From assembly GCA_015179125.1 (NCBI GenBank), contig WHVA01000148.1:161227-225226 (forward strand): a stretch of DNA of 64,000 nucleotides. The letters run 5' to 3'. The translations under genes were made by a program, and so were the position numbers. The DNA comes from Gautieria morchelliformis. Lineage: Eukaryota; Basidiomycota; Agaricomycetes; Gomphales; Gomphaceae. Below are positions 4,902-29,157 of this stretch, one piece after another. The notes below the pieces were generated by a model. It was not told where the DNA came from, did not search any database, and was given only the letters and a program-made list of their open reading frames with translations. Position 1 is the stretch's first letter. Every line of letters starts with the position of its first letter.

Positions 4902-4907
4902 AACCCT
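4892..4907 (-). other. Primer-binding site of copia A (half-tRNA iMet type)
   Basis: The minus-strand sequence AGGGTTATGGGCCCCG abuts the 5' LTR. It resembles the Drosophila copia primer site, which pairs with the anticodon arm of initiator tRNA-Met rather than its 3' end. The assignment rests on known copia biology; the fungal tRNA itself is not in this window. Confidence 0.7.
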
Positions 4908-5396
4908 TGTTAGCAACTAGGGGCTATGGCAGGGAAGGTTCGGTAGAGTTCTTAGAAAGCTAGAATCAAATACACTCTCTCAGTGAATTTATTGTCACTG
5001 ATGTATTAATACAATACCTAGAATCAAATACACTACATGATTTTCAGTCAACATGCTATGTAAATATGAAAGATACTACTCGCCTCTCTCAGTGAATTTA
5101 TTGTCACTGAGAGAGGAGTACAATCCTGTCTCAGAAGGCATATACGTGCACCCGGCCCTTTAGCGCCCATGGGCTCGCGCGTCGAAGTCATTTCAAACTC
5201 CGCTGGGTGCAGCCGCCTGTGAAAGTAGAAATAACAGAATGAAATGGAGAGATAGAGAGTGACTGGAAAATTTCGAAAATAAGCAGAGAAATGGATGCAT
5301 GGCACAAGAACAATGTGAGAAACAATTGGAAACACCACACAATAAATTGAACATATTATACTTGATTTTGGTGCAGGAGCATAAATGCACCCAACA
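4908..5396 (-). repeat. 5' LTR of copia A
   Basis: 489 bp, TG...CA, over 99% identical by eye to 148-636, followed by the CTCAG target duplication. Confidence 0.93.
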
Positions 5397-5617
5397 CTCA
5401 GTTGCTTCCATATGTACCAACCAAATTTTTCAATACCTTGCACAATTGTAGTCCTCATACAGACCAAACAATGTAATCTGGCTACTGAATAGAATAGCCA
5501 AGTCTTATCAATTTTTGCACAATGCATTAGCAGATGATAGTGTGGGCAATTAATGGTATATTGGGGAAATAACACGAAAAGAATCTACCCTTTAAGAAGA
5601 ATGTCCCGGGGAACATT

Positions 5618-7909
5618 CTATGGGACTCGATGCTTTCGTCGCAGCTCAGCCACCATCAACTTATTGCATCGCCAAATCATCTCATCCAGAAAAGAATTAT
5701 ACCGGTCTACCCTCGTCTCTGGAACCATGGCCTGAAAACCTCCAAACCATGCGTTCGTCTGTTCTGCAACAGACGAGTTAAACCGCCAATGTCCTTCGGA
5801 TGTTGTTAGTTCGGGCCATATGAGAGGGTTTCAGTTTTCTTTGCACCATTTATGTTTCTTACTATGTTTGCAGTCTTAGTGGAAAACATCTACAGGCAAG
5901 GCACATCTGTCAAAGTAAGTGTCTCCCTCAGCCACAAGCATTGCTGAAATGATGCAGTTTGTGTCCATCCAAAGGACCTTGGGGAGTGAGGCTTTCGTGG
6001 GGAAGAGTCCCCGCCAGAACTCCTACAAGTATATCAAACAGTGTACAGACATCACAAATTATATAAATAACTCACTTGAACACCGTTGGGACCTTCTGAC
6101 CCATAAAATGTTGCACGCCCGAGTATTACACCACAAGATGCAACACACAACTCTTCGTTATGTGTGCGTTTGCGTCCAAAACGTGCTCTAATTTTTTGGT
6201 TACCTGTATCTGGTTTACTTGGGCAGTCATCCACATCGGCAGGCATATCGGCAGGCTGTAAGATCCTTTGACCGTTCTCCACGATGATCCCGATCTCTTC
6301 ATCATGTAGACCATCTCCTTCATTCTGTAAAAATGTCTCCTCGACACTGTCTTCTGATCGGATTGTGTTATGGTCCATGCCAGAATGCTCTGTAGCTTCG
6401 TTAGGCATGGTGGAGCTGGTCTGACTGAGCTTATGGCGTTCCAGCCTTGCCTTCAGTTGAAACATCCCCTTACCTGCCTTGGAATAGTACTCCTCACACG
6501 CACGATGATCGACGTGGTTGCATGTTTTGTAGCCAGGCTCGACTTGTTCTTTGCATGAGACAACCGCACATTCATACCTCTTATGGTTGTGATAATCACA
6601 ATATATTGCCTGGTTGTTCAGAAGAGGGTTCTTGCAGTTGAGTGCGCCAGCACAGCATGGGTGTCCGAGGGTAATGCCGTCCATAACCACGGAACGAACT
6701 TTACCTATACATAGATGTCGATTTGGCAGAAAAGACATACATTAGTGGATGGCATACACATCTCCCCATTGTCGTCCTGAGACACATGTGTGCATACTTC
6801 ACATGCATGATTCCATTCTGCCTGCCCGGTTCCCATCATATGAAGTGTTTGCGCTTGTAAAGCCGGGCGTAACCTGTGTCTTTGCTTGATTTGCAACTTG
6901 AAGTATGGTAGAATTAGCTGTGTGATCTATAAGAAGGCTGTGGATGAAGAATGAGTCCCATATGTCGTCATGGTATAGATAGAGCTTTGGGCGCCAGTCA
7001 GGAGGAAGCAGTGTTTTGATATATTCAGGCGCAAAAGATAAATTGTATATGCGCACACAATTGGTTGCAGAGGTCCTAATTGCATGCACATTGAGCACTA
7101 GTTTTAAACTTGCAATAAAGTTCACATACCAGGCGCAGTTAATCATCGTTGCAAATATTTCACAGAGGTTCGTCTCGATAAAGAAACGTTGCAAGGCCTG
7201 GATGTAATCAGGTACCCCTGGGTAGTACATTCGAACAGATGTGCTGACTCAGTAATTATAATAATAGTGTGTCTGACAATCTATTCAGGTAGCATGAGAC
7301 TGGAGTTCTTTCCTATGAAAGCATCACTCACTTCTGCAGAGAAATGAGGAGTTATAGCCCGGCAGCACTCCATAGTCTTTATTGAGGACTGTAGCTGCAA
7401 ACTTGATTGGCTCACAAAGTTCTTGGAGCTTCGTGTCTACACCGGCCCTTGTTCGGCTAGTGCAGGCCGTATTAATGCAGGTCCGATGAGGAGGGTAGAA
7501 TTCATAAAATGCTGTGAGCTGAAAGCTTCAATGGTTATTTAGTACAGGGAAATGGTGAGAGAAACTCACCGACACTGTAAGTTGGACCGTATCTCAAGAA
7601 TAGCGGAAGCAGTGCCGCTTGCCTCATCCTCAACCGTAGGCGATTGTCAGCCTGTTCAATCCATCCGATCCCCTTGAAAACCTCCCACAAAATCTTGGTG
7701 TTATCATAGGAGAGATCGAGAGAATCTCGTAGGAAACAATGGATGCTGCCAGGGAGGGTATCGGGTGGATCTGTGACCTCAGAGTGCTGGCTCCAGAGTA
7801 TTCGTTCCTTAAGGTGGCATATGAGATCGATGAATGTCACGAGAGTGTCGAACGGGAGCCGTGTGAGTGCCGGATACTCCAAGAAAATTGCTAGGAGATC
7901 ATGGCCCAT
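5618..7909 (-). pseudogene. KDZ-associated CxC5/CxC6 cysteine-cluster gene, decayed
   Basis: A multi-exon minus-strand gene resembling the CxC5/CxC6 proteins found alongside KDZ (Kyakuja-Dileera-Zisupton) transposases in mushrooms. Supported exons are 7909-7570, 7511-7332, 7247-7130 and from 7075 on, with short GT-AG introns. Recognisable blocks are RTCINTACTSRTRAGV, ATNCVRIYN, EWNHACEVC, VMDGITLGHPCC, GRKRTHNEEL and a C-terminal block with WRFNSSVAEQTNAWFGGFQA (about 5730). Decay signs are an apparent frame slip near 6880, an in-frame TAA at 5876-5878 and an in-frame TGA at 5831-5833. The final stop is at 5618-5620. The cysteine clusters suggest zinc binding. No KDZ transposase lies next to it. 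The family call rests on recalled motifs, not a search. Confidence 0.75.
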
Positions 7910-9104
7910 GGTGAGTGGCGTATTTGTGTTCGCGTACAACTTAATCTAAGTCGAGTCAAGGTCCGTGTCTTCGTGTGTGCGGTGACTGGTCTATATCCGC
8001 AGGATGGATGGTGAGGCTGGGAGCGGCTGCGAAGTACTCAATAACCGAGGGTGGTTGTCTGTGCTCAGGAGATCTGTTATGGTGGTGATGCACCGATCTA
8101 TATCCACCCAATGTATCCGGTGAGCGTGGCCGACGACAAGCAGAGTTATCAGTGCCCAAGTTCTATATAATAATTGAATAATAATTGAATTATAATTTGT
8201 TGTGGGTGTATGTGCCCACAATTACTAAACATTAGGGTTTAGTGGTCCATGGACCAAGTCCATGGACGAGTTGTGAACGGCCAGGTCGTTCTCAGAGTTT
8301 GGCTTCAAGCCGAGAGGTTCGGGGGTCAGATATCAGACAGAGGGACTGAAGTAGGAGGATCTAAGTCAATATCTGAACTGAGGAAATAGAATACATGATG
8401 GGGGGTTTATATATGAAAAGCAGGGCTTAGCAAAAGGGCATCAATGCCCTGATCAAGCAGATAAGAAAGATAAGGGACAATCAAACAGGAATGGTATGGA
8501 GGTTAATCAAAAAGGTCATGTGATACAGCATATATGAGTATATAATATATATTATGCTGTTCATACTAACTTCTCCTGTACATGACATTGTCTGCACTGT
8601 GATAAATTACCTCTGCTAATCATGCGCAACAGACATGCCAGATGGGACCAACAATGCCTTGGTTGTTAGTGCTACAACACACCATGATCAAGAGTGCATC
8701 TATTGATACTAAAACATATTCACTCTGATGTAGTTTCACAGTGAGGATGAAGCTCACAATAAAGGTACCGCTGGTCTGAAGATGTCAAAGAAACACATAT
8801 TTGTAACCACATTTGCAAGGGGCTGGAACTTCAAGAATTAAATTAGGCGCAGTATCTTAGTCAGCAGATATCAGAGGGATCTTTCTATATTTAGTAATTA
8901 GTGCTTCAATTGACATCCTTGGCTCCCGTTCGCATTTTCTTAGAAAAAAGTCCCACTCTTTAACTTAACCATGTCTGTGACACCTACATAAGTCTGTAAG
9001 CTTTTTGATGGCAATGTCAACCTCTTCCATTAGGTTTGAGGCAGGATTTGTATGCACTCGAGTACATCAACAAAGTGCAATGTGTGAAGATACATGTGGT
9101 CATG
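7910..9104. other. Gene-poor stretch upstream of the CxC gene
   Basis: No convincing gene. Around 8243-8270 the palindromic decamer GTCCATGGAC occurs twice, separated by CAA. From 8500 to 9100 the sequence is AT-rich and without long ORFs. Confidence 0.5.
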
Positions 9105-9371
9105 AATATCACACAGGAATGGCTGTTACTGGAGAGGAGAGTGTGAACAGTTGTTTCCATTGAGGAAATGGATGGAATTGATGTCCCTTCCCAGATTGAC
9201 CTTCCATTCAAGGTCAACTTGTGTTATGTCTTCCAGGACAATGAAAATAGCTTCTTTGTCCTGGACCTTATGCTGGGTGGGATTTATTATGAATATCACA
9301 CAGGGATGACTCTTACTGAAGAGGTGAACATGGAAAGTTGTTTCCATTGAGGAAATGGATGGAATTTATTC
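9105..9371 (+). repeat. Two direct repeats of about 80 bp
   Basis: The segment starting GAATATCACACAGGAATG (9106) recurs at about 9291 with minor changes. Both copies run through TTGTTTCCATTGAGGAAATG into GGATGGAATT. Spacing is about 185 bp. No coding frame explains the conservation. Confidence 0.7.
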
Positions 9372-9978
9372 TTAATGTGATCATCAGATTTAAAAGAATA
9401 GATAATATTCTTTTATGCTCAGGGACTGGGGATGCTACAGTCATCCTAATGTGCGGTGCCTGTGCAGGCTGATTAAGCTCAGCCTGGTGTATTGTACTCA
9501 AGGCCGTCAATCACATGATTGGGTCAAGGAGAAGACAGGGTCAATTTAGATCAGGAACAAAGGTTCCAAAGCTTTTGCTTTTGGAACAGTTTAGTAGACA
9601 GCAATAGTGAACTCAACAATGAATCAAATACATTTGTCCCCTTACATCTTATGAAGTGAACATGATATGTTTTTATTCAGAATTTCCTTATGTCTTAAAT
9701 TGTAAACAAAAGGAAGAAGTCTTCGCCATTTCCCATAGTTTCAAATGATTACTGGATTTGCTCTTTTTTCATTATTTTTTGCTGTGGGTTATGGTAAACA
9801 AAGAGCATGCATGACATCTCAGCATGCACAGTTAGCCAAAGGGCACAATTGTTGGTAAGCACAAATTTGCAAATTTGGCATTTTGAGCTGGCTTATGGAC
9901 ACCATAATATATCCAACGTTTAAAATGTGGATGGAGTCTTGCAGTATGACGCGGAGAACGCACTTTTAATATTTTAAG

Positions 9979-10560: not shown

Positions 10561-13425
10561 CCGTCCCCGTCGCCTTCTGGCTCTCCCACGGACTCGCGCG
10601 GTGACGCGCCTGTCGCGGCGCTGGAGGCGGAGGCGGAGTCCGAGGAGGTAATGGGGTCTGCGCCCCGCTTGTCCACGTTGGCGCTGGCGTAGAGCTCCGC
10701 CCTGTCGCCGGGTGCGTATGCGTCTGTCGGTGTGCGGTCCAGGTCTGCGTCGGCGCTAGGATCAAGATCGGGCGCGGGCGAGGGCTCGGTGCACCACCGC
10801 ACCGCGTGCTCCTGCACACTGGGGCATGTTCCAGATGCGGTGGCGATGCGGCCATGCCCTGGCGTGTGAGAGTGGGGGACGATAGCGCGTCCTGCGCTCC
10901 TGCTCCCAGGCGACCCGGCCGCCGACGTGTGCGCGTGGGGTTGTGAGGAGTCGTGGGCGAGCGGGGGGAGTCTAACCGTGCGGAGTGGGGCGACTCGATC
11001 CTTGGGCGCGGGTGCGGGTGCGAGGGTGCGGGTGCGAGCGAGGGAGCAGGAGTGAGCGTCAAATAGCGCCGTGGAGTTACATAATTCTCCCTCTCATGAC
11101 ACCCTACCACCACTATCCATGAGGACACAGCAGTTTTATTTTGAGGGGATTATGGTGGACACATGGCTTGCCAGGGCTCAGCCTATACTTCCCTATGCAC
11201 CATATGCACCTTATGAAGTGTCTCATTAATTTTAGAGATACCATCTTGCATCCCAATATTGGGCCTCAAAGAGTTCAGATACTCTGACTGAGTGACAGAT
11301 GTGCAGTACAAATTGCACATGAGCCTGTTTGAATCTGCTGCTGTGACCTTTTCACAATATCTTTCAAATGCTGTCGGACTCTCAGCCTGACCCAATTTGC
11401 CTCAAAGCACATGTTACTGTGAGAAAACTCAACAATCTTCTCTCTTGGTTCTATTACCAGTAAGAGTTTTCTGCTCAGTAGGACTAGGCTGATCTAGTGT
11501 ATAAGATACAGTCCAGTTGTGTTATGTCTTGGGATCTTGCTTTGGAGCGCAGCACCCGGTTGGTGAAGCAGGCGGCCCGTCCAGACTTGAAAAAGGACAG
11601 GGCCCAGTGGATATACGCTATAGAGCTCGACGCGTCGAATCCGTTACCGTTGCCCGCGTCGTCCATATCCGAGTCAACTCGGAAAGATCTTGGATGAAAA
11701 GGGAGCAAGAGTTCAGTACGTCGAGGAGAGCGGGAAAGTGTTTGGGAGCAACGACAGGTCCGTAGAGCAAAAGACCGAAGCTAGATGGGCGCAACTCCCG
11801 GCGACGAGACCGGTGACCCGCCTGAGGACCGACGCTGACATGGGCCCTGCGATCGCGTCCTGCTCGCCCCGGTCCACGAATGACGTGGGGCAACCTTTAA
11901 TTTTGGTTTTATCCATGAGACGACACCGTGAGACCTGGGGAGTACCTAAGTACCTCCCAGCTGCAGCGGTAGAGGGTCAGCCACGTTCCACGAGGTTAGC
12001 CAGTGTCCCGCCGGGAGTCCTCGACCTGAGTACTGGCCTGCGAGTGGTTCCAGCGCATTCCTGTCATTATCTTCCACCATGACTGATGCATCAACACACG
12101 GTCCGAGTCAGCAGCTGTATAGAAGCAGCCTGAAATAGGGACTGAGTATGGACAACAGTGCTGAAATTGATTCAGTTCCAGCACCCGAGACAAGTAATTT
12201 CACCAGGATGTCTCTGGCAGTGCCCAGGTTCAAGCTATTTCATGAACAGATACATTCCGAGAGCAACGCTGCAAAATCACACAACATACCAGACCAGAAG
12301 ACGCCTCACCCTGCTCCAATTCGGCTTCTGCGTCTCCTGCCTCACTCGACATGTCATCAATCAGTGCGGTCGTGGCATCAACGACAGTCTGGACTGGGGC
12401 CTCGAACGCAAAATCACGAGCCAGGACCTGCCCAGGTATACGTAACGGCCCAGGAATCTCCTTCGCTTCAGGTGCCTATCTATCCGTTCTCCAGCACCGA
12501 CCATACATATATATATCCATCTCCACGGATAGATGGACGAGCTTGCACGAATACCATGTACCTCAGTGCTGATATGGGCATGCGGCACAGCCATGGGACT
12601 CCCGATGTCAACCCCAATCGAAGCCGGCGGCGGATCCCCATTGGCAGTCCGATGACTGCAATTCTTCCTGCGGAGATGAGTCAGGATGAGGCTACGTTCA
12701 TCTCCTCACAAAGGGATGCGATGGAGACGGATGCGGCGGCGTAGGAAGCGACGGTGAGGAATACCCACGCAAGTGGGAGAGGCTCTCGCCGAAGGGCAAG
12801 ATCGTCAGGATCACTGGTAAATAGCCACATGCTTCTGGTCCATATCTCCGTTCCCGCGCCCTATGCCCTCTTCCCCTTGTTCATACCGATGTCACTGCTC
12901 ACGTCTGCGTTGCATATGCTGTAGTTTATGTCCGCTGTCAACGCGCAAATTGAAATCCTAGGGTAATTACAAAGGGTCTCTCCTCGGACTTCTTCAGTAT
13001 TGCTTACCGGTGCCGTAAACCTCCTGGATTCTTGTGGGTTTGAAAAGGTGTCTGCGGTCCGTGCGCTTGGCGTGGTGCGCTATCGTCAACGATGACGTTG
13101 AATTAAAGTTCACTGCCGGGTGAGATAGTATTTTTGGCAATAGATTGAGTTGAATTATGTTAGTGATTAGCTTCAATAAGGTGTGGTCTGATTGTAAAAG
13201 AAGCTGTGATCGACTTTTGAATAGCCAAGGGTGCTTCACGTGGTTTTCGGCAAGCGGCACTTGGAACTTTTGAACTGTTATCATGCGCGCGGTGGCTATC
13301 TTACGCACAGGCTCCATCATTTAAGCCCCACTCAAAGCTCTGCAAACTTCAACTTGCTTCACAGTTTGGACTTGACCACATACGTATCTGTCCTCCATCC
13401 ATCAGTCCTATCACAATTACAAATC
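10561..13425. other. GC-rich then mixed DNA, no gene supported
   Basis: 10561-11060 is very GC-rich and open on the minus strand as a Pro/Ser-rich frame without domain features. 11060-13425 has only short ORFs; the longest on the plus strand is 12148-12744. I recognise none of them and found no consistent splice pattern. Confidence 0.45.
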
Positions 13426-13710
13426 ATGCCCAGAGAAATTGATGCAACCAATGCTAGCTTTACAGTAAGGCAAGGAAGTTTATGTGGATGATACTTGACT
13501 TAGTGTGATGCTGTGCAGGCGGGGGAAATCATCTGGGTGAGATACCCAGACTCTCAAGACTGGGTCCAAGCGACCTTTTATTCATATGGATTTTCAACCA
13601 CAGTACATTGCCATTTCATTCAAGTTAAGTCTACATGTCTCACATATGTTTCCCTTCATCAGAGGGTTCGCGGTAGGCGAAAGACCAAGATCGGGGTTGT
13701 TGCTATATGA
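13426..13710 (+). CDS. Possible small three-exon gene, 63 aa, unknown function
   Basis: Predicted by splicing only. Exons are 13426-13464, 13519-13623 and 13663-13710; introns of 54 and 39 bp begin GTAAGG and GTTAAG and end CAG. Each exon is a multiple of three, so all junctions are phase 0, and the frame ends at a TGA. The product begins MPREIDATNASFT, contains EIIWVRYPDSQDW and ends with a basic segment RVRGRRKTK. I do not recognise a family. It lies about 420 bp left of the Harbinger terminus. The second intron is short for this lineage, which lowers confidence. It could be a relic of a longer gene. Confidence 0.35.
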
Positions 13711-14152
13711 GTTGGGGACGCTTACAGGACGCGTGTCCTATTTCCATGGAAAGATGTCACGGATTCTCCGTGATTTGGAGAATAAACTATAATGACCAGA
13801 CATTTGAATTGTAATACTTGCAAGCAAAATAGGACTATCCCAATTATCAAGATAACCTCAGGAATCGCCTCGCAGGCCAATAAGACCCGTGACAGAAATA
13901 GGGAGGAGGGGAGAATGCAAGTGAGATACGCTGCGCAGCTCATGTCATTCCAGGCGATAGCTGTTTGTAAGATTTCATTGAATGGATACCTCAGGTAAGA
14001 CTGGGATAAGGAACATTGGATGGAACAACATATAAGACCGCACATGCGCTTTGCAATTACTCGTTGGCGAGAAATTTCATTACTCAGAGGGCCAAGTGAA
14101 CGATGGCGCGCGAAGCTGATAGTTCCTAAAATAGGGCTGATCACAGTAGAGG

Positions 14153-14280
14153 ATTTGAGTAGGATTTGATGAGGATTTGACGGAGGATTTCGATTTCTTT
14201 AGAACACCCGACAATGCCCCGAAATCGCGATTTAACTGTGATTAGCCCGATTTGAAACTGGATTTGAGTGGATTTGAGCA
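14153..14280 (+). repeat. Subterminal GGATTTGA repeats, left end
   Basis: GGATTTGA/GGATTTC motifs occur at irregular 10-14 bp spacing after the inverted repeat and again at 14260-14278. The right terminus (22396-22520) has a denser set, in both orientations. Such arrays are typical transposase or accessory-protein binding sites; that role is inferred. Confidence 0.6.
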
Positions 14281-14348
14281 AGGTGATGCCGGACACGGCA
14301 GGATTGAAGTTCTCAACCGGCAGACGGCTCCATATACGTCTTTCCATC

Positions 14349-15796
14349 ATGACCATCATGACTGCAAGGAACGAGCTCACCGACACCCTCGTTCAGCACC
14401 TTATGTTGGAACTCGTTGTAGAAGAGGACACTGAATTGGATGCTTACTTATATGACACAGCGTCCGAGAGCTCAAACTCAGATGTGGAGAGGTTATTAGG
14501 GTCTGATGAGCTCGTTGAAGTGCTAAAAGACTTGCATTCTCGCCGGTATCTTCAACCAAGGGTTGACATCAACAAACTGATGTCTCTTCTTTTGGTAACT
14601 CTTGCGGAGTACAAGCACACACGGCCGGAGTTTTTTCGCCGCTATTTGCGAGTGTGGCCAGAAACCTTCGATTCACTTCTCGAAAAGATCTGTAATGATG
14701 AAGTTTTTTTGAACAACTCTAATAACCATCAGCTGCCAGTGGAACCGCAAGTTGCTGTTACACTTTACCGGTTTGGTCACTTTGGAAATGCCGTTAGTGT
14801 GCAGGAGGTAGCATTGTGGGCAGGATGGGGTTTTGGGACAGTCGATCGGTGCACACGGCGGGTCATGAAAGCCCTATGTCGAACACAATTCCGCCGAGTT
14901 GCTATCAAGTGGCCGGATGAGGTAGAAAAAACACGAGCAAAAGACTGGGTAGAGGAGGTCTCAGGTCCGGAATGGCGTGACGGATGGCTCATGGTAGATG
15001 GCACTCTCGTGCCTTTATTCCAACGCCCTGGATTTTACGGTAACACATGGTATGATCGCAAAAGTAACTACTCGATGAATGTGCAGGTGAGTTATTCATC
15101 GTATGGCATTGAAGTGTCGCTAACTAGCCTACAGCTCATTTCAATTCCTGACCTCCGAATTATTGACTATGGGGTAGGTTTACCAGGGAGTCAGCATGAT
15201 TCCCGGGCATGGAATGAGACTCGGTTGCCCAAAGAACATGCCTCTTTGTTAGAAGTAGGTGAATGGGTATGGGCAGATTCAGCATACCCGCTCCAGAAGT
15301 GGTTGTGCACACCATACAAAAAGTACGCAACACAGTTTGATATTACAGGTTTCGAGGGTGTCATTTTTGATATATGTACAGACCAGAAAAGGACACACCG
15401 GATAACAGACATTTTAACTACTGGGTTTCAAGAATTCGTGTTAAATCCGAACATTGTGTTGGATATGTCAAAGGCCGGTTCTGCTCGCTGCGGGGCTTGC
15501 GCATTCAGATAAACCAACCCCAGCATCTGAAATTCACATCGCTCTGGATCACCGCCTGTATAGCTGTACATTGCTTCGCAATGACTCATGAGGCTGGCCA
15601 GGACATCACTGCAGATGAATTCTTCCGTGAGGGGTTACGCATTGTTGCTGAAGAGAGAACAACGAGCGTGGAGGTCAATATAATAGACCATACTGACGAT
15701 GAGGTGTCAAGGGATGTTACGCTCCTTGAGGGAAGAGTGAAGCGTGAGCAGCTGAAGGGGTTTCTCTTAGAAAGACTCCACACAGAGTCTCATAGC
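14349..15796 (+). CDS. PIF/Harbinger DDE transposase, 3' end cut off by copia B
   Basis: DDE superfamily nuclease that would cut and move the Harbinger element. Splicing introns 15087-15134 (48 bp) and 15323-15381 (59 bp) gives a continuous frame. Catalytic residues are visible: D in LMVDGTLVP (14997), D in GSQHDSRAW (15198) and E in VKSEHCVGYVKGRF (15449). An N-terminal helical region comes before the catalytic core. I chose the ATG at 14349; 14286 is an in-frame alternative. The codons at the right edge (...HTESHS) run straight into the LTR. The last three codons and the stop now sit at 24134-24123 on the other strand, beyond the inversion. The only break is the copia insertion, so the transposase was probably intact until then. 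Confidence 0.88.
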
Positions 15797-16294
15797 TGTT
15801 GGGTGCATTTATGCTCCTGCACCAAAATCAAGCATAATATATCCAATTTGTTGTGTGGCCTTCCAATTTCTTCTCACATTGTTCTTGTATTATGCATCCA
15901 TTTCTCTGGTTATTTTCGAAATTTTCCACTCATTCCTTATCTCTCTATTTCATCTTGTTATTCCTACTTTTACAAGCGGCTGCACCCAGCGGAGTCTGAA
16001 ATGACTTCGACGCGCGAGCTCTTGGGCGCTAAAGGGCCGGGTAGTAGTACATGCGCAGTGGAACACATTTCCCCCTCTCTCAGTGACCACTAAATTCACT
16101 GAGAGAGGCAAGTAAATTAGTCTAGTAGTCTTTACATTTATTGACCTAGAAATCCTCTGTAGTGAATTGATTTCTAGGTAGTGTATAATATATTTATAGT
16201 GACCACTAAATTCACTGAGAGAGTGAATTGATTTCTAGTCTATTCTTTTGAATAACAAGTCCATACCTACTGCCTATAATTCCTGTCCTCCACA
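15797..16294 (+). repeat. 5' LTR of copia B
   Basis: 498 bp, TG...CA, flanked on the left by ATAGC (15792-15796). It carries the same 13-bp stem found in LTR A (16074-16086 with 16096-16108), with a different loop. Confidence 0.94.
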
Positions 16295-16310
16295 GGGTTA
16301 TGGGCCCCGG
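16295..16310 (+). other. Primer-binding site overlapping the gag start codon
   Basis: GGGTTATGGGCCCCGG directly follows the LTR. The ATG at 16300-16302 is both the gag initiator and the complement of a CAU anticodon, as expected for half-tRNA iMet priming of the Drosophila copia type. Confidence 0.7.
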
Positions 16311-19300
16311 AGACACTTCTGAGAAGCTGTTGGGTGTTGAGAAGCTTGCTACTGATGGAAGTAATTGGCCATTGTGGCGAGCCACTCTCATCAGCTATTT
16401 CGAGTCCAAAAATCTGCTCAAGCATGTAGAAGGGAGAGTCACTCGACCTCCTGATCCTCCAGTCATGCCCCCAGGCCATATTCTAACAGAAGCTGAGGAA
16501 ACTCAGATGGATAAGGCTGAGGAGAAGCTGGAGAGATACCTTGCTAGAGAAGGACAAGCCAAGACCCAAATCATTGTCTCAGTGTCAGAGTCATTAGCCC
16601 TGATGCTACAGAAGCAGAAGACAGCAAAAGAGACTTGGGATGCACTGGTCAATGAGATGACCAAAAAGCCCAAGATGGTCCTCACCAGCCTGCAGAGACA
16701 ACTCCGCAGTATGAGATGTCCTGAGGATGGAGACTTGAGAGATCACTTGGACAAGGCCCAAGACCTATATGCTCGTCTTAATGAGATGGGAGCTAGAGTT
16801 TCTGAAGAAGAATTCATGGACATCATCCTTGCGTCACTTCCACCATCCTATGAGGCAGTCATGAACGCCCTTACCACTTCGCTTGAAGAATGCGGGATGC
16901 CATTGGTCCCTGATAATATTATTAGGGTACTAAAGGCTCAGTATGACAGGAAGAAAACACTCCCGCAAGAAGAGCAGGTGTTTATTGGTTCATCTACTAA
17001 GAAGGACCAGAAGGGGCAGAAGGCGCATGTATGCACCAACTGCAAAAAGCCTGGACATTCCATCGAAAATTGCTGGGCTAAAGGAGGTGGTAAAGAAGGC
17101 CAAGGACCACGTCAGAAGAAGAAAGCCAAAGGCAAGAAGAAGAAGAAGGGTAAAGCAAAAGCGAATGTTGCCGAAGAAGAGTCTACTTCTGAGGAAAGTG
17201 GTGATGGGCATCTTGCCTTCACCAATTTCGATGAGTGCTCTAATTTCAATTTGAGCACATCCTCAGGAGTTATAGTCATACTCGACACCGGAACGACATC
17301 GCATATGACTCCTCACAAAAATTTATTGAGGGACTACTGTCAATTCTCACAGCCGAGGACTATCCGAGCAGCCAACAAAGGTACTTTTGATGCCTTCGGC
17401 TCAGGACTGCTCGTATTATCCAATAAGGTTGGAGATAGAACAGTAGAAGTCACGTTGCAAGATACATACTATGCACCCAAAATTGCTGCTACCCTCGTCT
17501 CGATCGGTCGGTGCGATGATGCTGGCTACGACATTCGACTCGGTGGCCAGAAATGCACAATATCTAACGCTACCGGAAAGGTATTGATGCAAGCACCGAA
17601 GGTCAATGGTTTATATCGACTAGACCTCCAGTCACCAAGTGCTCAAGCCCATATGTGTTTATCTGCCATGGAAATTCATCAAAAGATGGGGCACATCTCG
17701 CAGAAGTCCCTACAACATCTATTAAATCATGGCATGATATTGGGCATTGAACTGAGCTCCACAGGCGATAGAATTGTCTGCGATGCGTGTATTCAGGCCA
17801 AGATTGCACGCAAACCTCTTCCTCGAGAACCCAGAGACCGAACATCAAAATTCGGTGACAGAATTTATTCTGATGTCTGGGGACCTGCAAGACACCTCAC
17901 GATCGATAAGAAGTCATATTATGTCTCCTTTATCGATGACTACTCAAGAGAATCGGTGATCTATCTCATGGCGAACAAATCAGAAGCATTCTCAAAGTAC
18001 AAGCTCTACGAGGCTTTAATGCTTCGACAGAGAAATGTGCACATCAAAGCACTTGTTTCTGATCGAGGGGGCGAGTATATGAGCTCTGAATTCGAACAGC
18101 ATCTAGCCAAACAAGGCACGAAGCATCAGTTGACGGTACACGACACACCAGAGTCCAATGGTGTTGCGGAACGCCTGAACCGAACCCTCACTGAGAGAAC
18201 TCGTGCCATGCTGCTAGAATCAGGCCTTCCTAAGATATTATGGGGCTATGCGATACAGCATGCCAATTATCTTAGGAACAGGACGCATACAAGAGCTCTA
18301 CCAGATAAAACGCCCTACGAGATGATTCACCATGAAAAACCGAATCTCAAAGACATTCACGCGTGGGGAACTGAAATTTATGTTAAAATCACTCAGGGAG
18401 ATAAATTGGCAGCTCGTGCCAAGAGAGCTCGTTGGATAGGAATTTCTGCGCAGAGCCATGGTCATTATATTTATTGGCCTGACTCGCACAAAGTTTCTGT
18501 CGAGGGAACGTTGTGTTTGATTCAGAGATGAAGAAGGGAAAGGTCCCAATCATTTCTATTGAGGAATCCAAGCTACCCACGTCTAGAGAAGAGAAGAAGG
18601 CCATTCCGGCATCAGTGCCTGTGCCCGGTCGCTTAGTCAGCGAAGAGGCAAAGATCGAAGAAATTGATGAAAGTGCACCGGAAGAATATCTTGAAAAACT
18701 GCAACCTATTCAGGGAGTTGATGACAGACCTAGAGAAGCTGAACCGATAAGGAGAAGCGAAAGGATCCGTCAACAACAAGTGCAGCCGGCCCCATCAGGT
18801 CCCGTAACAAGATCTCAAACCCAGAGACAAGCTGGCGCACATATGACTACGCTAGCTTACGAGGACGTTGAGGACCATAAAGAAGATTTATTCGACCAAG
18901 AATTATCCTCCGAGATTGATGGCATCAGTAGCTATGAGTGTGCCATCAGTGCGTTTCTAACCGACGGTCAAAACAATAACAAGGCGCCGGATTTGAATCA
19001 AATTGAACCTAGCAATGCAGACGAAGCTCTGAATAATCCTATATGGAAGAAATCAATGGACAAAGAGTATGAGGCCCTAATCGACAAGGGAGTGTGGGAA
19101 CGAGCCAAATCACCTCCTGGAGCCAATATTGTCGGTAATAAATGGGTCTACCTTTGGAAGCGTAATCCAGAAGGGAAACCAATAATGCCTAAATCGAGAA
19201 TGGTCGCCCAAGGCTTCACACAGAAGTTTGGAGTCGACTATGATGAGACATACTCACCTGTTGCTCGGTTATCCTCCCTACGGATCATATGCGCCATTGC

Positions 19301-20543
19301 TGCTAGGAATGACTGGCCTATCCATCAAATGGACGTGGACTATGCATACCTCAATGCTACGTTGCCCGAACCTATTTACATGAAGCAGCCGTATGGATAT
19401 GAGTCAGGAGACAAAGGCGAAGTGCTACTTTTGAAGAAAGCACTCTACGGCCTCAAGCAATCTGGAAGAGAATGGTACAAACGTCTAAGTGGTGAATTCC
19501 ACAAGTTAGGATTCACTACGTCAGCCACAGACGGGGCTGTATTTTATAGACGTGGCGGAAAGGGGCATGTGATCATTGCAACAGCTGTGGACGACCTTAC
19601 CATCACAGCTGAGAATCAGTCAGTCCTGGACGAAGTCAAACGAGATCTTGCTCAGATCTTCAGTATGAAAGATCTAGGCGAGATTCATTGGCTATTGAAT
19701 CTCAAAATCGAAAGAGACTGGCAGAAGAAGACCATTGCAATTTCACAACCTGCATACATCGAGAAGATCATCAAAAAATTTAATCTCGAAGATGCAAAGA
19801 CTTATGCTACGCCTCTTGATCCAGCCGTAAAATTATCTAAAGACCAATGTCCTTCTACAGAGAGAGGCAAGAAAGCCATGTCGAAGTTTCCATACAGGCA
19901 AGCTATAGGATCACTGATGTGGGCGGCTGTAGCCACTCGACCTGACATTGCATTTGCGGTGTCATTACTCTCGCAATTCCTCGAAAATCCAGGTGGCACA
20001 CATTGGAATGCAGTCAAACGTGTCTTCAAATATTTGAAAGGCACGAAGCATTACAAGCTCACACTTGGAAGAAATCGAGACGGCTTGATGGGGTATTCAG
20101 ATGCGGATTGGGGTTCACAGAGTCATAGGCGTTCGTATTCGGCATACTTATTTCAGATTGATGGAGGCACTGTTTCATGGAGTTGCCAGAAACAGTCGAT
20201 AGTAGCCCTCTCATCAACTGAAGCCGAATTCGTCGCCCTGACCCATGCGGGCAAAGAGGCTCTTTGGATGCGCCATTTTATTTCTGAAATATTCCAACCA
20301 CTGAACAGACCCATCCAAGTTTATTCAGACAATCAATCAGCCATTGCCATCACGTATGGCACCCAACAACACACGAGAACCAAGCATTTCGACATCCGAT
20401 TATATTTCCTTCGAGATATAATCAAAAATCAACAAGCCAAGCTCGTTTATTTGCCAACCGAACAAATGTCGGCAGATATCCTCACTAAAGGACTTCCTAG
20501 TCCTAGAGTGAAGATTCTCAACGAGCAAATTGGAATATATTAA
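16300..20543 (+). pseudogene. Copia B gag-pol, single frameshift
   Basis: Copia polyprotein with one lesion. Residues 1-230 are Gag, followed by a CX2CX4HX4C knuckle (CTNCKKPGHSIENC, near residue 245) and a Lys-rich linker. Next come protease (DTGTTSHM, near 328) and the integrase HHCC zinc site (IHQKMGH ... CDAC, 457-494). The integrase core has D in YSDVWG, D in VSDRGGEY and E in ESNGVAERLNR. About one base is lost near 18500-18506 relative to copy A, ending the first frame at 18531. The second frame (18513-20543) is open through RT (DVDYAYLNA, ALYGLKQSGREWY, TAVDDLTI) and RNase H (SDADWGSQ, SSTEAEFVAL, RTKHFDIRLYF). A programmed shift is unlikely because copy A reads straight through this point. 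Confidence 0.93.
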
Positions 20544-20547
20544 GCTT

Positions 20548-20556
20548 GAGGGGGCG
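20548..20556 (+). other. Polypurine tract of copia B
   Basis: GAGGGGGCG directly before the 3' LTR, four bases after the pol stop TAA (20541-20543). Confidence 0.75.
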
Positions 20557-21053
20557 TGTTGGGTGCATTTATGCTCCTGCACCAAAATCAAGCATAATAT
20601 ATCCAATTTGTTGTGTGGCCTTCCAATTTCTTCTCACATTGTTCTTGTATTATGCATCCATTTCTCTGGTTATTTTCGAAATTTTCCACTCATTCCTTAT
20701 CTCTCTATTTCATCTTGTTATTCCTACTTTTACAAGCGGCTGCACCCAGCGGAGTCTGAAATGACTTCGACGCGCGAGCTCTTGGGCGCTAAAGGGCCGG
20801 GTAGTAGTACATGCGCAGTGGAACACATTTCCCCCTCTCTCAGTGACCACTAAATTCACTGAGAGAGGCAAGTAAATTAGTCTAGTAGTCTTTACATTTA
20901 TTGACCTAGAAATCCTCTGTAGTGAATTGATTTCTAGGTAGTGTATAATATATTTATAGTGACCACTAAATTCACTGAGAGAGTGAATTGATTTCTAGTC
21001 TATTCTTTTGAATAACAAGTCCATACCTACTGCCTATATTCCTGTCCTCCACA
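20557..21053 (+). repeat. 3' LTR of copia B (recombinant)
   Basis: 497 bp. It differs from the 5' LTR by a missing A near 21038 in the last 20 bases. The LTR at 24140-24637 has the undeleted version there. The right flank is ACAAC (21054-21058), which is not B's own duplication. Both facts fit a crossover inside this LTR. Confidence 0.9.
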
Positions 21054-21058
21054 ACAAC

Positions 21059-22375
21059 GACATCGCAGGGCCAATGCTTCAACCATGAACAGACGCCTCG
21101 GCTATAACCAAGACGGCACCACCACACAGCATTTGTAACGTCTCTCACAATGGAGCGGCATAGTGCCCTCGGTCTGAGATCACACCACTACACCTCACCT
21201 CGTCGACGGACACACAACAGAATAGGTCGAAGCGGGGCACAGGTCAGGCCCTCAGCTTGAACGAGTTCAACGAAAACTTCCGTACATCACCGTCCGGTCT
21301 TGCGGAGAAAGAGCTTAGGGACAGAAAGTTTCCCCTTGCCAGGAATATGCCCAAGAGGGACGCAGAAGGTGTTTCCGTGAATGACACACTCAATCCAGAT
21401 GACGACCTGTATGGGTCCGGCATCGATGGTCATGCAACAGCAGATGGCCTGTATGTGGGCGACATGTCATGTCCGAATGGTCCTGTGACCTGCATGAACG
21501 TGCGCATGTCCCCGATGCACCTGCAACGATGCGCTCAATTCAGACGACTTCCCAACTGCTGGGGTTTTTTGGCATGGATGGTTCTATCCTCAGCACGACC
21601 TCCTCAAAGTGTAACAGCGAAAACGCCTCCTGGGCGCGTAAGCCCGAACCTACGCGCCGCGGAGCGCAATACCCCTGCTTGTTCCGGACTTACGTGTTGT
21701 TAACGTCCTGATCAATAATTGCCGCTGAATATTGGTTCTCGGATAGACGTCCAGGATTGACTAGGTAGTTATCCGATGCTTAGATATTTCAGTAGGGTAC
21801 GAAACTTACAAGTTGATGTCCATCACAATGATACTGAGAATTTTTCCAAGTAGAAGCACGCTGCGGTAAATCCAGTATATGAACTGGTCTTTGCTCCCAG
21901 TACCGCGAGTCGGGGTACTTATGCCCAAGTAATGGTAAGGAAAGGTGCCAATCTTTATTATTTAATCATCCCTCTGCTCGACGCATGCTCCAAACGCACA
22001 CACGCATACCCATGTCCCGTCCCTCGGATGTCGCCATGAACCAGGTGTCCTGCCTACCAGTAAAGTTGTATATTTAACACCCTATGAATGTGGAGGCATC
22101 ATAGTGAGTTGGTGCGCTGGGATTTAACTCTTTTTCACTGATCATATACAGGCGATGGCTATCGCTGGGAACGTCAGTTGTGCTCTCCTGTCCTCACTCC
22201 TGCTGGCCGTTGGTCTTCCGACTCTCTTAAATGGGCAGCGTAAATCTCCAGACGCATCCGCTACCTTTGCTCGTTAACAGGTCGCGTGAGTGTTTCCATC
22301 ATGTTTATCGTCTCTCACTCATTCCCTCTTAGAGTATTTGTGATCTTCCTCCTTTGTTCAGACTTGGTCCAAAGC
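21059..22375. other. Host flank inside the inverted segment, no gene supported
   Basis: A 148-codon plus-strand ORF (21257-21703) and shorter ones are present without recognisable motifs. Before the inversion this DNA lay between the Harbinger element and the solo LTR. Confidence 0.45.
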
Positions 22376-22378
22376 ATT

Positions 22379-24134
22379 AGGGCTGATCACAGTAGAGGAT
22401 TTGACCTGGATTTGATGGGGATTTGAGAAATGGATTTGGATGTCAAATCCATCCAAATCCTCAAATCACCTCCAGGAGGTGATTTGGGATTTGCGCGTGG
22501 ATTTGGATTTGGATTTTGGCCGGCTGGAGCGGCGGACCTTAAACTCTTGCTGCGTGAAATTTTCGTTAGGGACGATGAGCCCAAGGAAGCGAAAACGTTC
22601 TAACCCTGTCACTGCGACTCAGATCAGTCTGGCCACTGACGTTCCAGCAGATGCGCTGTCCATCCCGCAATTGGAGGCTCTGTTGGCCATGGCGCAGGCC
22701 AAGGGTGACGAGCGTGCCAGCAAACGACCTCGTAAACCAACCATTAAGGCTCTGGCCGCCGCAGAACAGCCTTGTTCCAAAGGGAAAAAAGGTAAGGGTA
22801 AGGGTAAGGAGGTGGAAGATGGTATGGCTATATTGCCGGTTCCGTGAGTTCCACTGCATTATTCAGACTGTATCTGTAGCTGACGTTCCGGTCAGTTGGG
22901 CTAAGGAGCATGACCTCACAGACCTACTTCTTACAGTCCTCGAGGATGATCCAGTGATGTGCGCTTCCCTAGGGATGGACAAGGGGGCTGAGATATGTAA
23001 CAAAAGCTCGCCGAAGACTGTGACCGACCATTATCGCACCATCGCACAGCGTGTCTTGATTCCACATGCCTCTGACCGCTGGAGAGATGCACCGCCAGAT
23101 CAGATGGGGAAAGTAGTGAAAAACCGGATTAATCTGTGCGTTTCTAGTTCGATATCATATCCTATTAACTAAATTATCGATGCAGGCTCAAAAAGACCTT
23201 TACAGCTGAAAAGGAGCTGCTCGGAGCAACTGGAGCGGGTTTAGTAGAGACAGAAGAGACAGAACTGGATATACTACCGGGAAGTGAGATTGAGAACATT
23301 TGGGGTGCGTCACTTGTTATTTCCCATGAATTACTAACATATCTATATATGTACAGGGCAAATAAAAGAACGCTTCCCATGGTTCCATCGAATGCAGCGG
23401 TTGATGGGAACCAGCCCGCTTGTTATGCGTGCGGCAATAGCCCATTCGACCTCAAAGCTTGACCTCGATGTCCTCGATCGCGTGCCCTGTGACTCTGGGG
23501 TAGGAAACGAAGAAGTACAAGTAAACTCACCAGACGCACCTCTCTCCCCTCTATACACACTCTCCCCTCCCTCCGATGATCCAATTGACGCCGACTACCT
23601 GCAGCCTAGTTCGCCGACATCTACTATAGATAGACCTCTACCTAAAACAGATGTACCTGTAAAACGGGAAGCTGCACCTGCCTTGACGGCCGCCTCACAA
23701 CGCAAGGGCATACTTGAGGGGCTTTCAGGTATGCAGGAGGTAAGACGGGCAGCAACAGAACGTCTGGCTAGCAGCCAGAACCGCTCCAAAGAAGAACGAG
23801 TATGGATACAGGCACAGACAGACCTGGCCCGTGAAAAGCTACAGCTCAAACATGCAGCGGAAAAGGAAAGGTTAGATCAGGCGCATGAGTTGGCAATGCA
23901 GCGCCAGCGGTTAGAGTTCCAGCTCCTCGCACAGGGTGCAGGACATCAAAGGCAGGCTAACATGGTAGGAATAGAATTGGGCACACAAGCTGCGCTAGCT
24001 GGGTTTTCTGGGACAAAAGCCCTTAGTGCTGGTGCGTCTTCGTTGGATGTGACATTCGCCGATGACAACATCATTCCCTGGGCAGACTTTATGCCATCCA
24101 GTACTAGTTCTTCATCTTAGTACTACTCTAGATA
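22379..24134 (-). mobile_element. PIF/Harbinger transposon, right arm (inverted)
   Basis: Starts with the same 26-bp terminal repeat as 14133-14158, followed by dense subterminal GGATTTG/CAAATCC motifs to about 22520 and then the second Harbinger gene. In its original orientation this arm followed directly on 15796. Its last bases (24134-24123, minus strand) encode the final transposase codons and stop. Confidence 0.85.
22575..24120 (+). CDS. Harbinger accessory protein, Myb/SANT-like with coiled coil
   Basis: Second gene of the Harbinger element; such proteins bind DNA and help the transposase enter the nucleus. Exons are 22575-22821, 22880-23135, 23186-23304 and 23357-24120, with introns of 58, 50 and 52 bp. 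The N-terminus is strongly basic (SPRKRKRS, KRPRKPTIK, KGKKGKGKGK), suggesting nuclear localisation. A Myb/SANT-like block starts at VSWAKEHDLTDLLLTVLEDD and runs to ...NRINLLKKTFTAEKELL. After an acidic/Pro-rich linker comes a long charged helix with REKLQLKHAAEKERLDQAHE, predicted as coiled coil. The gene is open throughout. Its stop (24118-24120) lies two bases from the displaced transposase stop (24123-24125), so the two genes were tail-to-tail. The Myb/SANT call is by pattern, not by search. Confidence 0.78.
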
Positions 24135-24139
24135 GCTAT

Positions 24140-24637
24140 TGTGGAGGACAGGAATTATAGGCAGTAGGTATGGACTTGTTATTCAAAAGAATAGACTAGA
24201 AATCAATTCACTCTCTCAGTGAATTTAGTGGTCACTATAAATATATTATACACTACCTAGAAATCAATTCACTACAGAGGATTTCTAGGTCAATAAATGT
24301 AAAGACTACTAGACTAATTTACTTGCCTCTCTCAGTGAATTTAGTGGTCACTGAGAGAGGGGGAAATGTGTTCCACTGCGCATGTACTACTACCCGGCCC
24401 TTTAGCGCCCAAGAGCTCGCGCGTCGAAGTCATTTCAGACTCCGCTGGGTGCAGCCGCTTGTAAAAGTAGGAATAACAAGATGAAATAGAGAGATAAGGA
24501 ATGAGTGGAAAATTTCGAAAATAACCAGAGAAATGGATGCATAATACAAGAACAATGTGAGAAGAAATTGGAAGGCCACACAACAAATTGGATATATTAT
24601 GCTTGATTTTGGTGCAGGAGCATAAATGCACCCAACA
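24140..24637 (-). repeat. Solo LTR of copia B subfamily (recombinant)
   Basis: 498 bp, TG...CA, no adjacent internal sequence. It appears identical to the 5' LTR of B, including the last 20 bases where the 3' LTR of B has a deletion. Flanks are GCTAT (24135-24139, complement of ATAGC) and GTTGT (24638-24642, complement of ACAAC). Confidence 0.92.
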
Positions 24638-24642
24638 GTTGT

Positions 24643-27600
24643 GTGCCATTGCATGACACTCGTTGTGTCGCTTGCTGAGTATGTCTGGATTAAACGGCTG
24701 GGCCGTCAGTCACCGATGCAATCACGTCCATATATAAGTAAATCTCGAGCTTTGCTTCCATCGGGTCATGTGCCATTCGTACGGTGATCCTTTCATTCAT
24801 TTAGGATGCTGGCTCTGGGTCTGCCGCAGAGCTCGACTCAGATGTCATGTGATAGTTTTGGTTGAACTTATGTGCACATAAGTGTCGTGTTCGATCCTCA
24901 TATGCTCCAGTCTGCTGATGATGAAAGGCATACGATGGGATGTACGTGAAGAAGGCAAGGGGACGTAAATATGACGGTGCCACCTAGTGGGAAGCTGAGT
25001 GGGGATAGTGTGGACCATTGTTTGCTATGCATCTGCCGTCACCAGCACTGCTGGGAAGTCCATGAAGAAGTCGTTCAGTGCGTGAGTATTCGTAGCTGGG
25101 TTCACGGCACTACTGAGAGGATTCAGGTTAGGTGTACTACTGTTCTGATATGTTAGCCTCTCCATTCAAACTCCTCGCGGTTCCTGAGCCTTCTGATGTT
25201 GTCGATGTCAGCAAGTGTTTTTGACTTGGAGTTTGATGAGATGGTGTTGTGATATCGTTTGCTGCTGAATCGCCGGCTGGTTTAGATGCGGTGACGGTGT
25301 TCGGTAGGTCTTCCGATGCGTCTGGTGTGTTGGAAGTCTGGACTGAGGATTGATTGCATGACGCGAAAGAACATGCGAAAGAAAGACTACTCGAAGTACT
25401 ACGAGGAGGTGGTGGTAGCGGAGAGAGTTCTGCTGTAGTGACAGCTTAGCTAATCACCCTGTTAATCAGCCCGGCTGTAGCGCGCGGCTTCATGAACCCA
25501 GCCTAGCGCTTCCGCGTCCACCTGGGTGGAGACGCTGCCACGTCCGTAGTGTCCTATGAGAGGACAAAGCCGTCTATATTCATCAACCTTAACGCCATTC
25601 AATGTGCTGTAGTTCGGGTCTGCGTGAGTGACTCACAGTGGGGCATCATCGATCAAAGTGGCGACTACGTGTGGACTGTGTTCGAAGATGATCTGGGCAG
25701 GGATGGAATGGAGGCGGACTAGTAGTAGGAGTCTTTTCACACTTAGAGTCTATACTTAGTGCTGTATCTCAAAAGCAGTTGTCACTTGGGGCCGCAGTAG
25801 CATTCCAGCACCTCAAGCATGGAAATTCATTGATACATATATGGAAACTTCAGTATATTTGCCCAGAAATATATATATTAATTCACTGGATTTCACTGAG
25901 TGCTCCATGAGCTATCTTGAAAACTTTTAAGTGTGTGAACAACAGCAATCCAGGCCTTCGAGCACTGAAATTCTCATGATAATTACATTGAATATGTAGT
26001 TCCTATGGCACGGAAACTAAGTGACAAAGCCACTGAAAATTCTACTGGTCCAACCACTTGAATAATTTCATTGTTTTTTTCTAGGAAACCCGGTAAGCCC
26101 AAATTTCATTGGTTTGTTTCAATGGGGGCTGTTTCAATGACGTACCCACTGAAAACAGAAACCCCGTGGGGGGTAAACCCACTAGGTTTCAATTGATTCG
26201 CTATCCACAGTGACAGAGCCCGAAAGCGCCCTGCAGTAGCTGATGCTGTGCTCGCAGTATTCTGTGATCAGACGTCTGCTTCTGGGAATACTTTGTTCCT
26301 CAGACTCAGACTCGCTCTGATCCTCAAATTCCCTCGGAAGGTCGAGGGCAGAATCGCCGTAGGCTCTGGGTAGCTGTGGTATCATTTTGTGCGAGGGGTG
26401 GCGAACTGAAGGTGGCCCTCTTTCGCGTGGATAATTTGGCAGTGATGCTCCTGCTGCTCCACTTGGAAGAACACAGTGTCATCGCACGTTAGTCAACCCG
26501 GACGCAGTGATTCCGATATACATGCTGTATCATTACATTGTCTCATGTTCATGCCGAAAAGAAAGCTACCAGCGGAAAGCGCTATACTATATAGCGGGCC
26601 CTCAAGCCCGGGAACCCACAGTTTATGGGAACGGGCAGCACGCATCAGATCTTAGAGCCCGAGTGATTGACAGCGGACGGTGATCACACCAAATTAGAAC
26701 TCTAATTCTGCGGCCCCTCGGTCCATTCTCGGACCGACACTGAAAATAGCAGTGCTTCCGAAAACCAGGGCCGGGACTCAGGTCCGCGGCGTCCAAGTCC
26801 AAGTCCAAGTACAGTACTAACGCCGGGATATGATATGTGCTCACCGCCATGATCGACTGTGGCGAACATAGACTGTTTTTTTATATGTGAGTGCCACTGG
26901 GCGGTGGTGGATATTCAATATTCAGCAGTGCGCTTGGGGGCCTGCTCCGGAGCAGATCCCTGTCGGAGCTAGCGGTTAGCCGAGTCCTGGTCACCGATGG
27001 GATCAATCATCGGTTGCATGGCGATGATGCCATCCCCGGGGGACGTTGCACCGTGCACGCTTCCATTTGTGCCCCTCAGAGACGAGAGTTTGCCCCATAT
27101 ATGTTCGCGCAACGAGGATGAAACTGCATACCTGAGGCCGGGATATCTGCGTAGAAAATTTCATGCCATTGTGCTCGGTAATTGTATCATCCCCGAATTA
27201 AGGTTCTTGGCGCTAATTGCTAAAGTCCTTTGTGGGCACTGGCACTGCATCCCAGTCGTTCATTGTCATAGCTAGACTCGCAATGGAGGACGCCTTTAAC
27301 GCTCACTTATTCGAATGACGTCTATATCATGTGCCAGGATCGACGCTCAGGACCACCGTGACAGCCACTCACATGCTGAAAATGCCCAGTCCACTTTGCT
27401 CAGATCACGCGTCACGACGACTCACCTGTACGTGTGGAGTACACGATGGCCAGCGTTGTTCGATGGTCACCGGTCGCCACTGGTCGCCAACAGCCAAGTT
27501 GGCCTGGAAAATCCTGTACGCGATCTCCGAGGAGGTAAGTAGCCAGCGGAAGCAGTGCGAAACAGCCTGAGTATACACTAAGGCTCGCATTAGAAGCTTC

Positions 27601-29157
27601 ACCCAGGTCCGCCGGTCAATGCAAATAACTGCACAAACACAACCCAGGCATCAGTCGTGCACCACGTGGATCAGTGAGTGATCAGATGGATCGATGACCG
27701 GTGCCCGATATATATGTGAGGGAGGGGGCTGACGACCTCAACGCAGCTCCCAAGCAAACCTCATGCTCATGCACATGCACGCCGGCGCCAATCCGTGATT
27801 CAATCATTTTTAAACCGCCTTGAAAGCTGAAACGGCCCGCACGCTGTACGCTGTGCCATGTCATGTTACAGCATCCCCATTACTCGCGCCCTCATGCAAG
27901 TGCCGCCAGCGTTCGCACACCAATTACTGTAATTTGTCCGTGCCAAGCTTTCTGCTTCTGACACGGGCGCGTTCGACTCGGATACTGTATGGGCCCGGGG
28001 GAGGGGGACCTGAGGCCTGCCTGCTGGGGTGCGGCTGCGGCTGCGTATTCGCAGACTAGTCGGCAACGCGGTGGCACCCGCCACTGTGCACCGTGCGGTG
28101 CGAGATCGCAGTGTCCGTCACAGGCCAGGCCGTGTCGACTGCGTAACTGCGTAGACGCACGCATGCATCAGTGGCGGCCCGCCTTCTAGGCCATCGGAGC
28201 TACGCCTGTGTGTGGCCCTACTTTCAAATTCTGCGAGCCTGGTCGAGCGTTGATTTATGATTTCCTCAGACACGCTGAGCTCCGCGTCCCAAAAAAAAAA
28301 AAACCCACAGTATCTATCAAACTTTGTGAGAGCTTGGAAGACGTGCATGGTCGACGTTTTTGATCTGGGAGCATTTTGGCCTTTGTACTCGTACCCAAAC
28401 TGGACTGGAAGGCATGCCCGTCTCCCTCTCTGGACCCGCCTTGGGAAATTTTTCGAGGCTGGTCCAGAGAGGTCTGGAAATATATAGATCAAATGAAGGA
28501 ATCAGACTGCTCCCTTCGTTTTATATACATATTTCCACGTAGTTGACACGCCTACCGAGTCTGTCTCCCTTGCGTCTGCTTCTGCTTCGGTGACAGGTTA
28601 TTCGATTGGAGGCTGACCCGTGCTCCGAAAGGGAGGTGGGGAGGTAGATGAGAATCGAAGGGTCTGGTGGTCAGCGCCGGACGGTTCAAAATACTCATAA
28701 AAAGTCACTAACGGTTCCCTTTTTCGGCGCGCGTCCCAACAACCGACATCCCCTGCCCCGAATCAATGCATGCCGCGAAAAGTGTCCAAGAACGCCGCAC
28801 GCGCATGCGCAATTCAGCAGGATGCATCTCGTACGTGTTGGACTTTTTTGTGACAATCCTAGGAGCTCGAGAAAGCGATTTCGCGATGGCACGGCTAAGG
28901 TTGATCGAGAATATGGCAGCGGAAATGTCGCGGCAGGAATCGAAATCGAACAAAGTTTAGGTTGGTGGCTGTCCTTGCCTTTCCATGACGATGACGATAA
29001 TATAGACTCGTATAAACGCACAGAGATATCGAATTTGATGTAGAAATTGACCAGCCTGAGCACCGATGCCTTCATTCATTATCGGGGTAAATTCTCTTAA
29101 TGATCACAAACCCTTCATATGGACACTTAATTATGCCGTCTATGGTTTCCAGTCCAG
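24643..29157. other. 4.5 kb without a supported gene
   Basis: Only short unconnected ORFs. CACTGAAA/TTTCACTG-type motifs recur at about 25880-26160, in an AT-rich block ending in a G/C-rich palindromic stretch; this could be a decayed small transposon but I found no termini. A 12-A homopolymer lies near 28290. Confidence 0.45.

Follow-up and report, generated by a model that had tools for sequence, protein, structure and literature searches.

What turned part of a Harbinger transposon around in the genome of Gautieria morchelliformis, and what can be said of the retrotransposon sequences that stand at both edges of the turned part? The window, that is, the whole 64,000-nucleotide stretch analyzed here, corresponds to C169:161227-225226 in a 122-Mb assembly of 1113 contigs and contains no N. 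From the letters, the first-pass annotation had proposed a 3.1-kb inversion between two copia long terminal repeats (LTRs). Comparison with other contigs of the assembly leads us to the view that recombination between opposite-facing LTRs very probably inverted segment 21054-24139. The features needed for the argument are as follows.

14130 to 14132, plus strand: AAT, left target duplication of the Harbinger element
14133 to 15796, plus strand: left part of a PIF/Harbinger-type element with its transposase (DDE_Tnp_4)
15792 to 15796, plus strand: ATAGC, left target duplication of copia B
15797 to 21053, plus strand: full-length Ty1/copia retrotransposon B (gag, integrase, reverse transcriptase), delimited by Pfam matches and LTRs
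15797 to 16294, plus strand: left LTR of B
20557 to 21053, plus strand: right LTR of B, 1 base shorter, with an A absent about 17 bp before its 3′ end
21054 to 21058, plus strand: ACAAC, exchanged duplication to the right of B
21054 to 24139, no strand assigned: segment of 3,086 bp, inverted relative to C208 and C378, in which it is reversed and contiguous with both outer flanks
21059 to 22375, minus strand: DNA inverted beside B; its place in C208 and C378 is between the right end of the Harbinger element and the site of the solo LTR
22376 to 22378, minus strand: AAT, right Harbinger target duplication, inverted along with the segment
22379 to 24134, minus strand: right part of that Harbinger element in its inverted state, with open reading frames (ORFs) at 22651-23172 and 23392-24120
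24135 to 24139, minus strand: ATAGC (as reverse complement), exchanged duplication of the solo LTR
24140 to 24637, minus strand: solo LTR of the same copia family as B, opposite-facing
24638 to 24642, minus strand: ACAAC (as reverse complement), duplication at the solo-LTR site

The Pfam domains of copia B follow the order Retrotran_gag_2, gag_pre-integrs, rve, and RVT_2. The integrase precedes the reverse transcriptase and the LTRs have the form TG...CA, which places B in Ty1/copia. The solo LTR is a single complete LTR without an internal region, and the two breakpoints are occupied by opposite-facing copies of one copia family. When each was read in its own sense, B was flanked by ATAGC and ACAAC and the solo LTR by ACAAC and ATAGC; direct reading of the flanks therefore bore out the swapped target duplications that had been described for this pair. 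Given the base composition of the window, a crosswise match of both 5-mers would arise by chance with a probability of about 1e-6. To place this exchange in context, the 5-bp flanks of 48 full elements besides B were collected from the best-scoring copies, i.e., those most similar to B. Exclusion of C973 (contig end) and C140 (5′ end not found) left 46 elements, with copia copy A of the window standing outside this set; the flanks of C271, C250, C969, C304 (second), C648, and C223 were read by eye. Some flanks are shared within the census, namely, those of C705 and C360a and, on the right side, those of C263 and C140 and of C518 and C132. The duplications were exact in 33 of the 46 elements, one base off in C969, and unmatched in 12, while those of B itself are exchanged. 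Since unmatched duplications are not rare in the family, a mismatch alone would be weak evidence, and the case for an inversion is carried by the crosswise match together with the un-inverted copies described below.

The split Harbinger element records the same change. Its termini at 14133 and 22379 now lie in direct orientation, as seen from a 92% repeat between 14132-14180 and 22378-22426. Reversal of the segment in silico turned these termini into inverted repeats, as the first-pass annotation had stated, and also placed a 3-bp AAT duplication on either side. DDE_Tnp_4, terminal inverted repeats, and a 3-bp duplication, the characteristics of PIF/Harbinger elements, are found together in the window only upon this reversal. 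AAT/AAT or ATT/ATT also flanked all seven other Harbinger copies with both ends visible, which represent five distinct flank sets, one of them being the window's own site (C208 and C378). The usual PIF/Harbinger target is TWA, to which AAT/ATT is not a letter-for-letter match. The transposase was recognized by Pfam as DDE_Tnp_4 (7.8e-16). Its frame (15374-15796) stays in phase to the end and breaks off three codons short of the stop; in the uninterrupted C208, the three codons and stop that follow it are the letters of the reverse complement of 24134-24123, in agreement with the source that had been assigned to them from the window alone. A second, Myb/SANT-like protein is expected for PIF/Harbinger elements. 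The ORFs at 22651-23172 and 23392-24120 gave no Pfam match at an E value of 0.01. For the latter ORF, the sole protein found was from Gautieria morchelliformis, a Gomphales basidiomycete, and its exons align one after another with C672 (88 to 98%).

Copies of the neighborhood elsewhere in the assembly display the un-inverted order directly. C208 contains, in one run, window positions 12200-14131, 14132-15796, the reversed segment (24134 down to 21054), and then 24638 onward, and C378 shows the same order up to window position 25842. Both match the neighborhood at about 99% identity and have no copia at either site, and each contains ATAGC once and GTTGT once, visible as short overlaps between the matched pieces. 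C1011 is uninterrupted at the B site as far as its contig end. Among the copies read at the junctions, a subset of the matches from searches scoring the best 40 candidates, the B site was uninterrupted in 12 of 13 (the exception, C279, carries a copia there) and the solo-LTR site was uninterrupted, in the un-inverted sense, in 7 of 7. ATAGC is single in the 12 uninterrupted copies, in the form ATAGG in one of these (C771), and ACAAC is single in the 7 empty sites, two of which (C781 and C648) depart from it by one base. All other copies read agree with the order of C208 and C378 at whichever breakpoint or breakpoints they cover, and both breakpoints of the inversion coincide exactly with the LTR insertions. 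The present orientation without copia B, which the first-pass annotation had named as contrary evidence, was looked for and was seen in none of the copies whose junctions were read. The opposite segment order and the two empty target sites of C208 and C378 support an inversion between two copia LTR insertions, and they do so with material beyond what was available to the first-pass annotation.

The relationship between these contigs was considered as well. The marker PF04997 matched three contigs, which is the number expected for a haploid fungus. The pairwise distances among C169, C208, and C378 are roughly equal. C208, C378, and C1011 are regarded here as paralogous duplicates or uncollapsed haplotypes and not as shown orthologues.

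The two insertions, the exchanged duplications, the empty sites, and the inverted order are direct readings of the DNA; from there, we infer the crossover, the formation of the solo LTR, and the sequence of these events in time. Two members of one copia family would have inserted in opposite orientation, one at ATAGC within the Harbinger transposase gene and the other at ACAAC, about 3.1 kb to the right and outside the Harbinger element. Each insertion would have made a matching 5-bp duplication, for which the single-copy targets at the empty sites serve as the reference. In one of the two elements, the left and right LTRs would then have recombined with each other, leaving a solo LTR. Homologous recombination with a crossover between opposite-facing LTRs of the two sites would have inverted the intervening DNA and swapped the inner duplications; the Harbinger element would have been cut in two, with its ends brought into direct orientation. 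The resulting arrangement is a rearrangement scar and not a functional device. In an alignment, the two LTRs of B and the solo LTR proved identical save for one A missing from B's right LTR. This deletion had been put forward as a trace of a crossover inside the LTRs. It is indeed present in B and missing in the solo LTR; however, it is not diagnostic, as a mutation at any time would fit equally well. The LTR alignment that had been suggested for mapping the crossover was run; with one indel as the only difference among the three LTRs, the crossover is not mappable, mapping from the LTR sequences was rejected, and a chimeric LTR is not demonstrable.

Could the orientation have been produced by the assembly and not by the genome? 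In that case, both copia insertions would be real, and the assembler would have turned the segment, actually C208-like, at the LTRs in inverted orientation. The breakpoints do lie within almost identical 498-bp repeats, the 5′ end of the family LTR (27 bases) has 2130 exact matches in the assembly (1018 forward and 1112 reverse), and near-identical paralogous regions are present. A mycorrhizal-genomes paper, which we infer to describe this very assembly, names the species, and its passages on sequencing give Illumina, PacBio, or both for the series without a species-specific technology. Against a flip by the assembler, the orientation is fixed by spanning just one 498-bp LTR; moreover, the window contains no N, and 5.2-kb copia copies were resolved despite many near-identical ones, so that long reads likely stand behind the assembly. 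We therefore consider such an artifact improbable. Import of the segment as a fragment of another paralogue, by template switching or insertion, appears less probable still. Several near-identical paralogues could have served as donors, but no second copy of the local segment is present at the site, and the duplications are exchanged exactly. The distance of the segment to C208 and C378 is also about that of the flanks. Substitutions between C169 and C208 numbered 10 in 3148 positions of the left flank, 13 in 3077 of the segment, and 5 in 1198 of the right flank; the corresponding counts against C378 were 16, 18, and 7. As the segment has about the divergence of its flanks and shares their nearer copy, a segment turned in place is favored, and we regard import as very unlikely. 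A chance juxtaposition of two unrelated elements with unmatched duplications could draw on the 12 unmatched cases in the census, but the crosswise match of both 5-mers and the un-inverted copies, which display the original order, leave it next to no credibility.

Within the favored explanation, recombination between opposite-facing LTRs, two starting points lead to the same final arrangement: the full element may have stood at ATAGC with a solo LTR at ACAAC (3.1-kb inversion), or the reverse (inversion of about 8.3 kb). The inverted state of the segment, as originally claimed, thus stands; the length of 3.1 kb is less firmly fixed, as the duplications are equally compatible with an inversion of about 8.3 kb. 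In the longer version, the solo LTR stood at ATAGC and the full element at ACAAC, and the inversion moved copia B along with the segment. It belongs within the recombination explanation and does not compete with it, and the confidence placed in this version is not to be added to that placed in recombination.

The longer version predicts exactly the observed flanks, and C279 offers a further point in its favor. At C279:149645-157534, a copia of another subtype than B sits at exactly the same ATAGC base, as if another element had stood there first, and the contig ends inside this copia. Compared with B, it shows 6 substitutions and 4 single-base gaps over the first 1.5 kb and 4 substitutions in 800 bp near the contig end, where it is identical to the C914 element. 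Over the Harbinger flank (14067-15796, 1.73 kb), C279 and C169 differ by no substitution and by 2 single-base gaps. However, the solo LTR, whose 3′ end adjoins ATAGC, carries the bases of B and not those of the C279 copia at LTR positions 175 and 495. As position 495 lies 4 bp from the LTR end, the longer version would need gene conversion of the solo LTR. Furthermore, C279 breaks off within a repeat, and its sequence there may be a mixed consensus. We consequently regard the inversion of about 8.3 kb as rather unlikely. The end of C279 may be a mixed consensus of other copies or may reflect another element that was first at ATAGC; its copia at this site is unexplained by the simplest history. 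Among the aligned LTRs, T at position 175 was found in the two LTRs of B, the solo LTR, and a solo LTR on C200, and C was found in the five others. C1037 has the bases of B at LTR positions 338 and 495. Separately, a patch of C279 within window positions 13067-13960 diverges from C169 by several per cent.

The census also yielded a second candidate pair. On C360, elements at 4555-9812 (plus strand; C360a) and 23156-28414 (minus strand; C360b) face each other across 13.3 kb. C360b is flanked by GATAG and GTTCG, and C360a is flanked by GTTCG and AGAAC, the latter corresponding to GATAG without its first three bases. The element on C705 is flanked by GTTCG and GATAG and shares with C360a the left 12 bp and otherwise the start of the right flank. 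C705 and C360b show the exact exchange; for the pair C360a and C360b, it is exact on one side only. One of the two breakpoints, the GTTCG site, was compared with uninterrupted copies, the host sequence being a high-copy repeat; all 8 copies read continue with the sequence found at the segment's far end on C360, at 1 to 2 mismatches in 36. On these observations, an LTR-mediated inversion probably occurred a second time, over about 13.3 kb. C705 was absent among the best 40 of 924 candidates matching the left flank of C360a. The host of C360:4555-28414 appears to be the coding region of another retrotransposon. C69 also carries an unmatched element; two other LTRs of this contig were read at their flanks as possible partners and lack the exchanged duplications. 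Tentatively, the copia family may be an ongoing source of LTR-to-LTR rearrangements, with the 5-bp duplications as their readable record, although on present sequence comparisons we would put this somewhat below an even chance. If true, reading the copia 5-bp duplications one copy after another could allow the past rearrangements of the genome to be pieced together.

Inversions of this kind are known from other transposable elements. The transposon Galileo generated inversion 2z3 of Drosophila buzzatii (PMC2775673, 2009), with opposite-facing transposon copies at the breakpoints, exchanged duplications, and single-copy targets in the non-inverted arrangement, as seen here. The Drosophila case concerns a natural chromosomal inversion made by a DNA transposon, with chimeric copies shown; the present one involves LTRs of copia, spans 3.1 kb (or about 8.3 kb), has a Harbinger bystander and no demonstrable chimerism, and finds its un-inverted copies on further contigs of a single assembly. 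Between human and chimpanzee, inversions mediated by L1 and Alu recombination (PMC2603318, 2008) are likewise presented as the outcome of recombination between inverted retrotransposons, with unmatched duplications separating derived from ancestral states. They differ in that the elements are non-LTR retrotransposons with duplications of 7 to 20 bp and in that the ancestral state was also checked by PCR. REANNOTATE (PMC2672092, 2008) shares the treatment of LTRs as recombination substrates and of solo LTRs as products of intra-element recombination; it differs in ignoring target duplications, and better inversion detection is left there to future work. Literature matched on exact phrases for exchanged duplications came from Drosophila, and we do not claim that such inversions are unreported in fungi. 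The mechanism is already published (Galileo; L1 and Alu), and the present inversion is a clean new case and no new mechanism. Its value lies in a clean small-scale structural change by LTR recombination: a single assembly contains the derived and the un-inverted arrangement, empty versions of both target sites are present, and a split second transposon records the flip independently. As a method, short target duplications combined with paralogous empty sites polarize a small inversion without a second species.

The surroundings of the locus are rich in similar sequence. Large parts of window positions 5900-34500 are multicopy at about 80 to 100% identity (C208, C378, C1011, C279, C22, C679, C858, and others), and judged by these matches, the stretch is a duplicated, transposon-rich region. 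Copia copy A (148-5396, minus strand) is related but older; its two LTRs, of 489 bp, share 99.4% identity, and matching CTGAG duplications stand on both sides. C378 matches the window up to 25842 and C22 from 25835, and this 8-bp overlap may point to a further insertion in that copy, with a target duplication of 8 bp.
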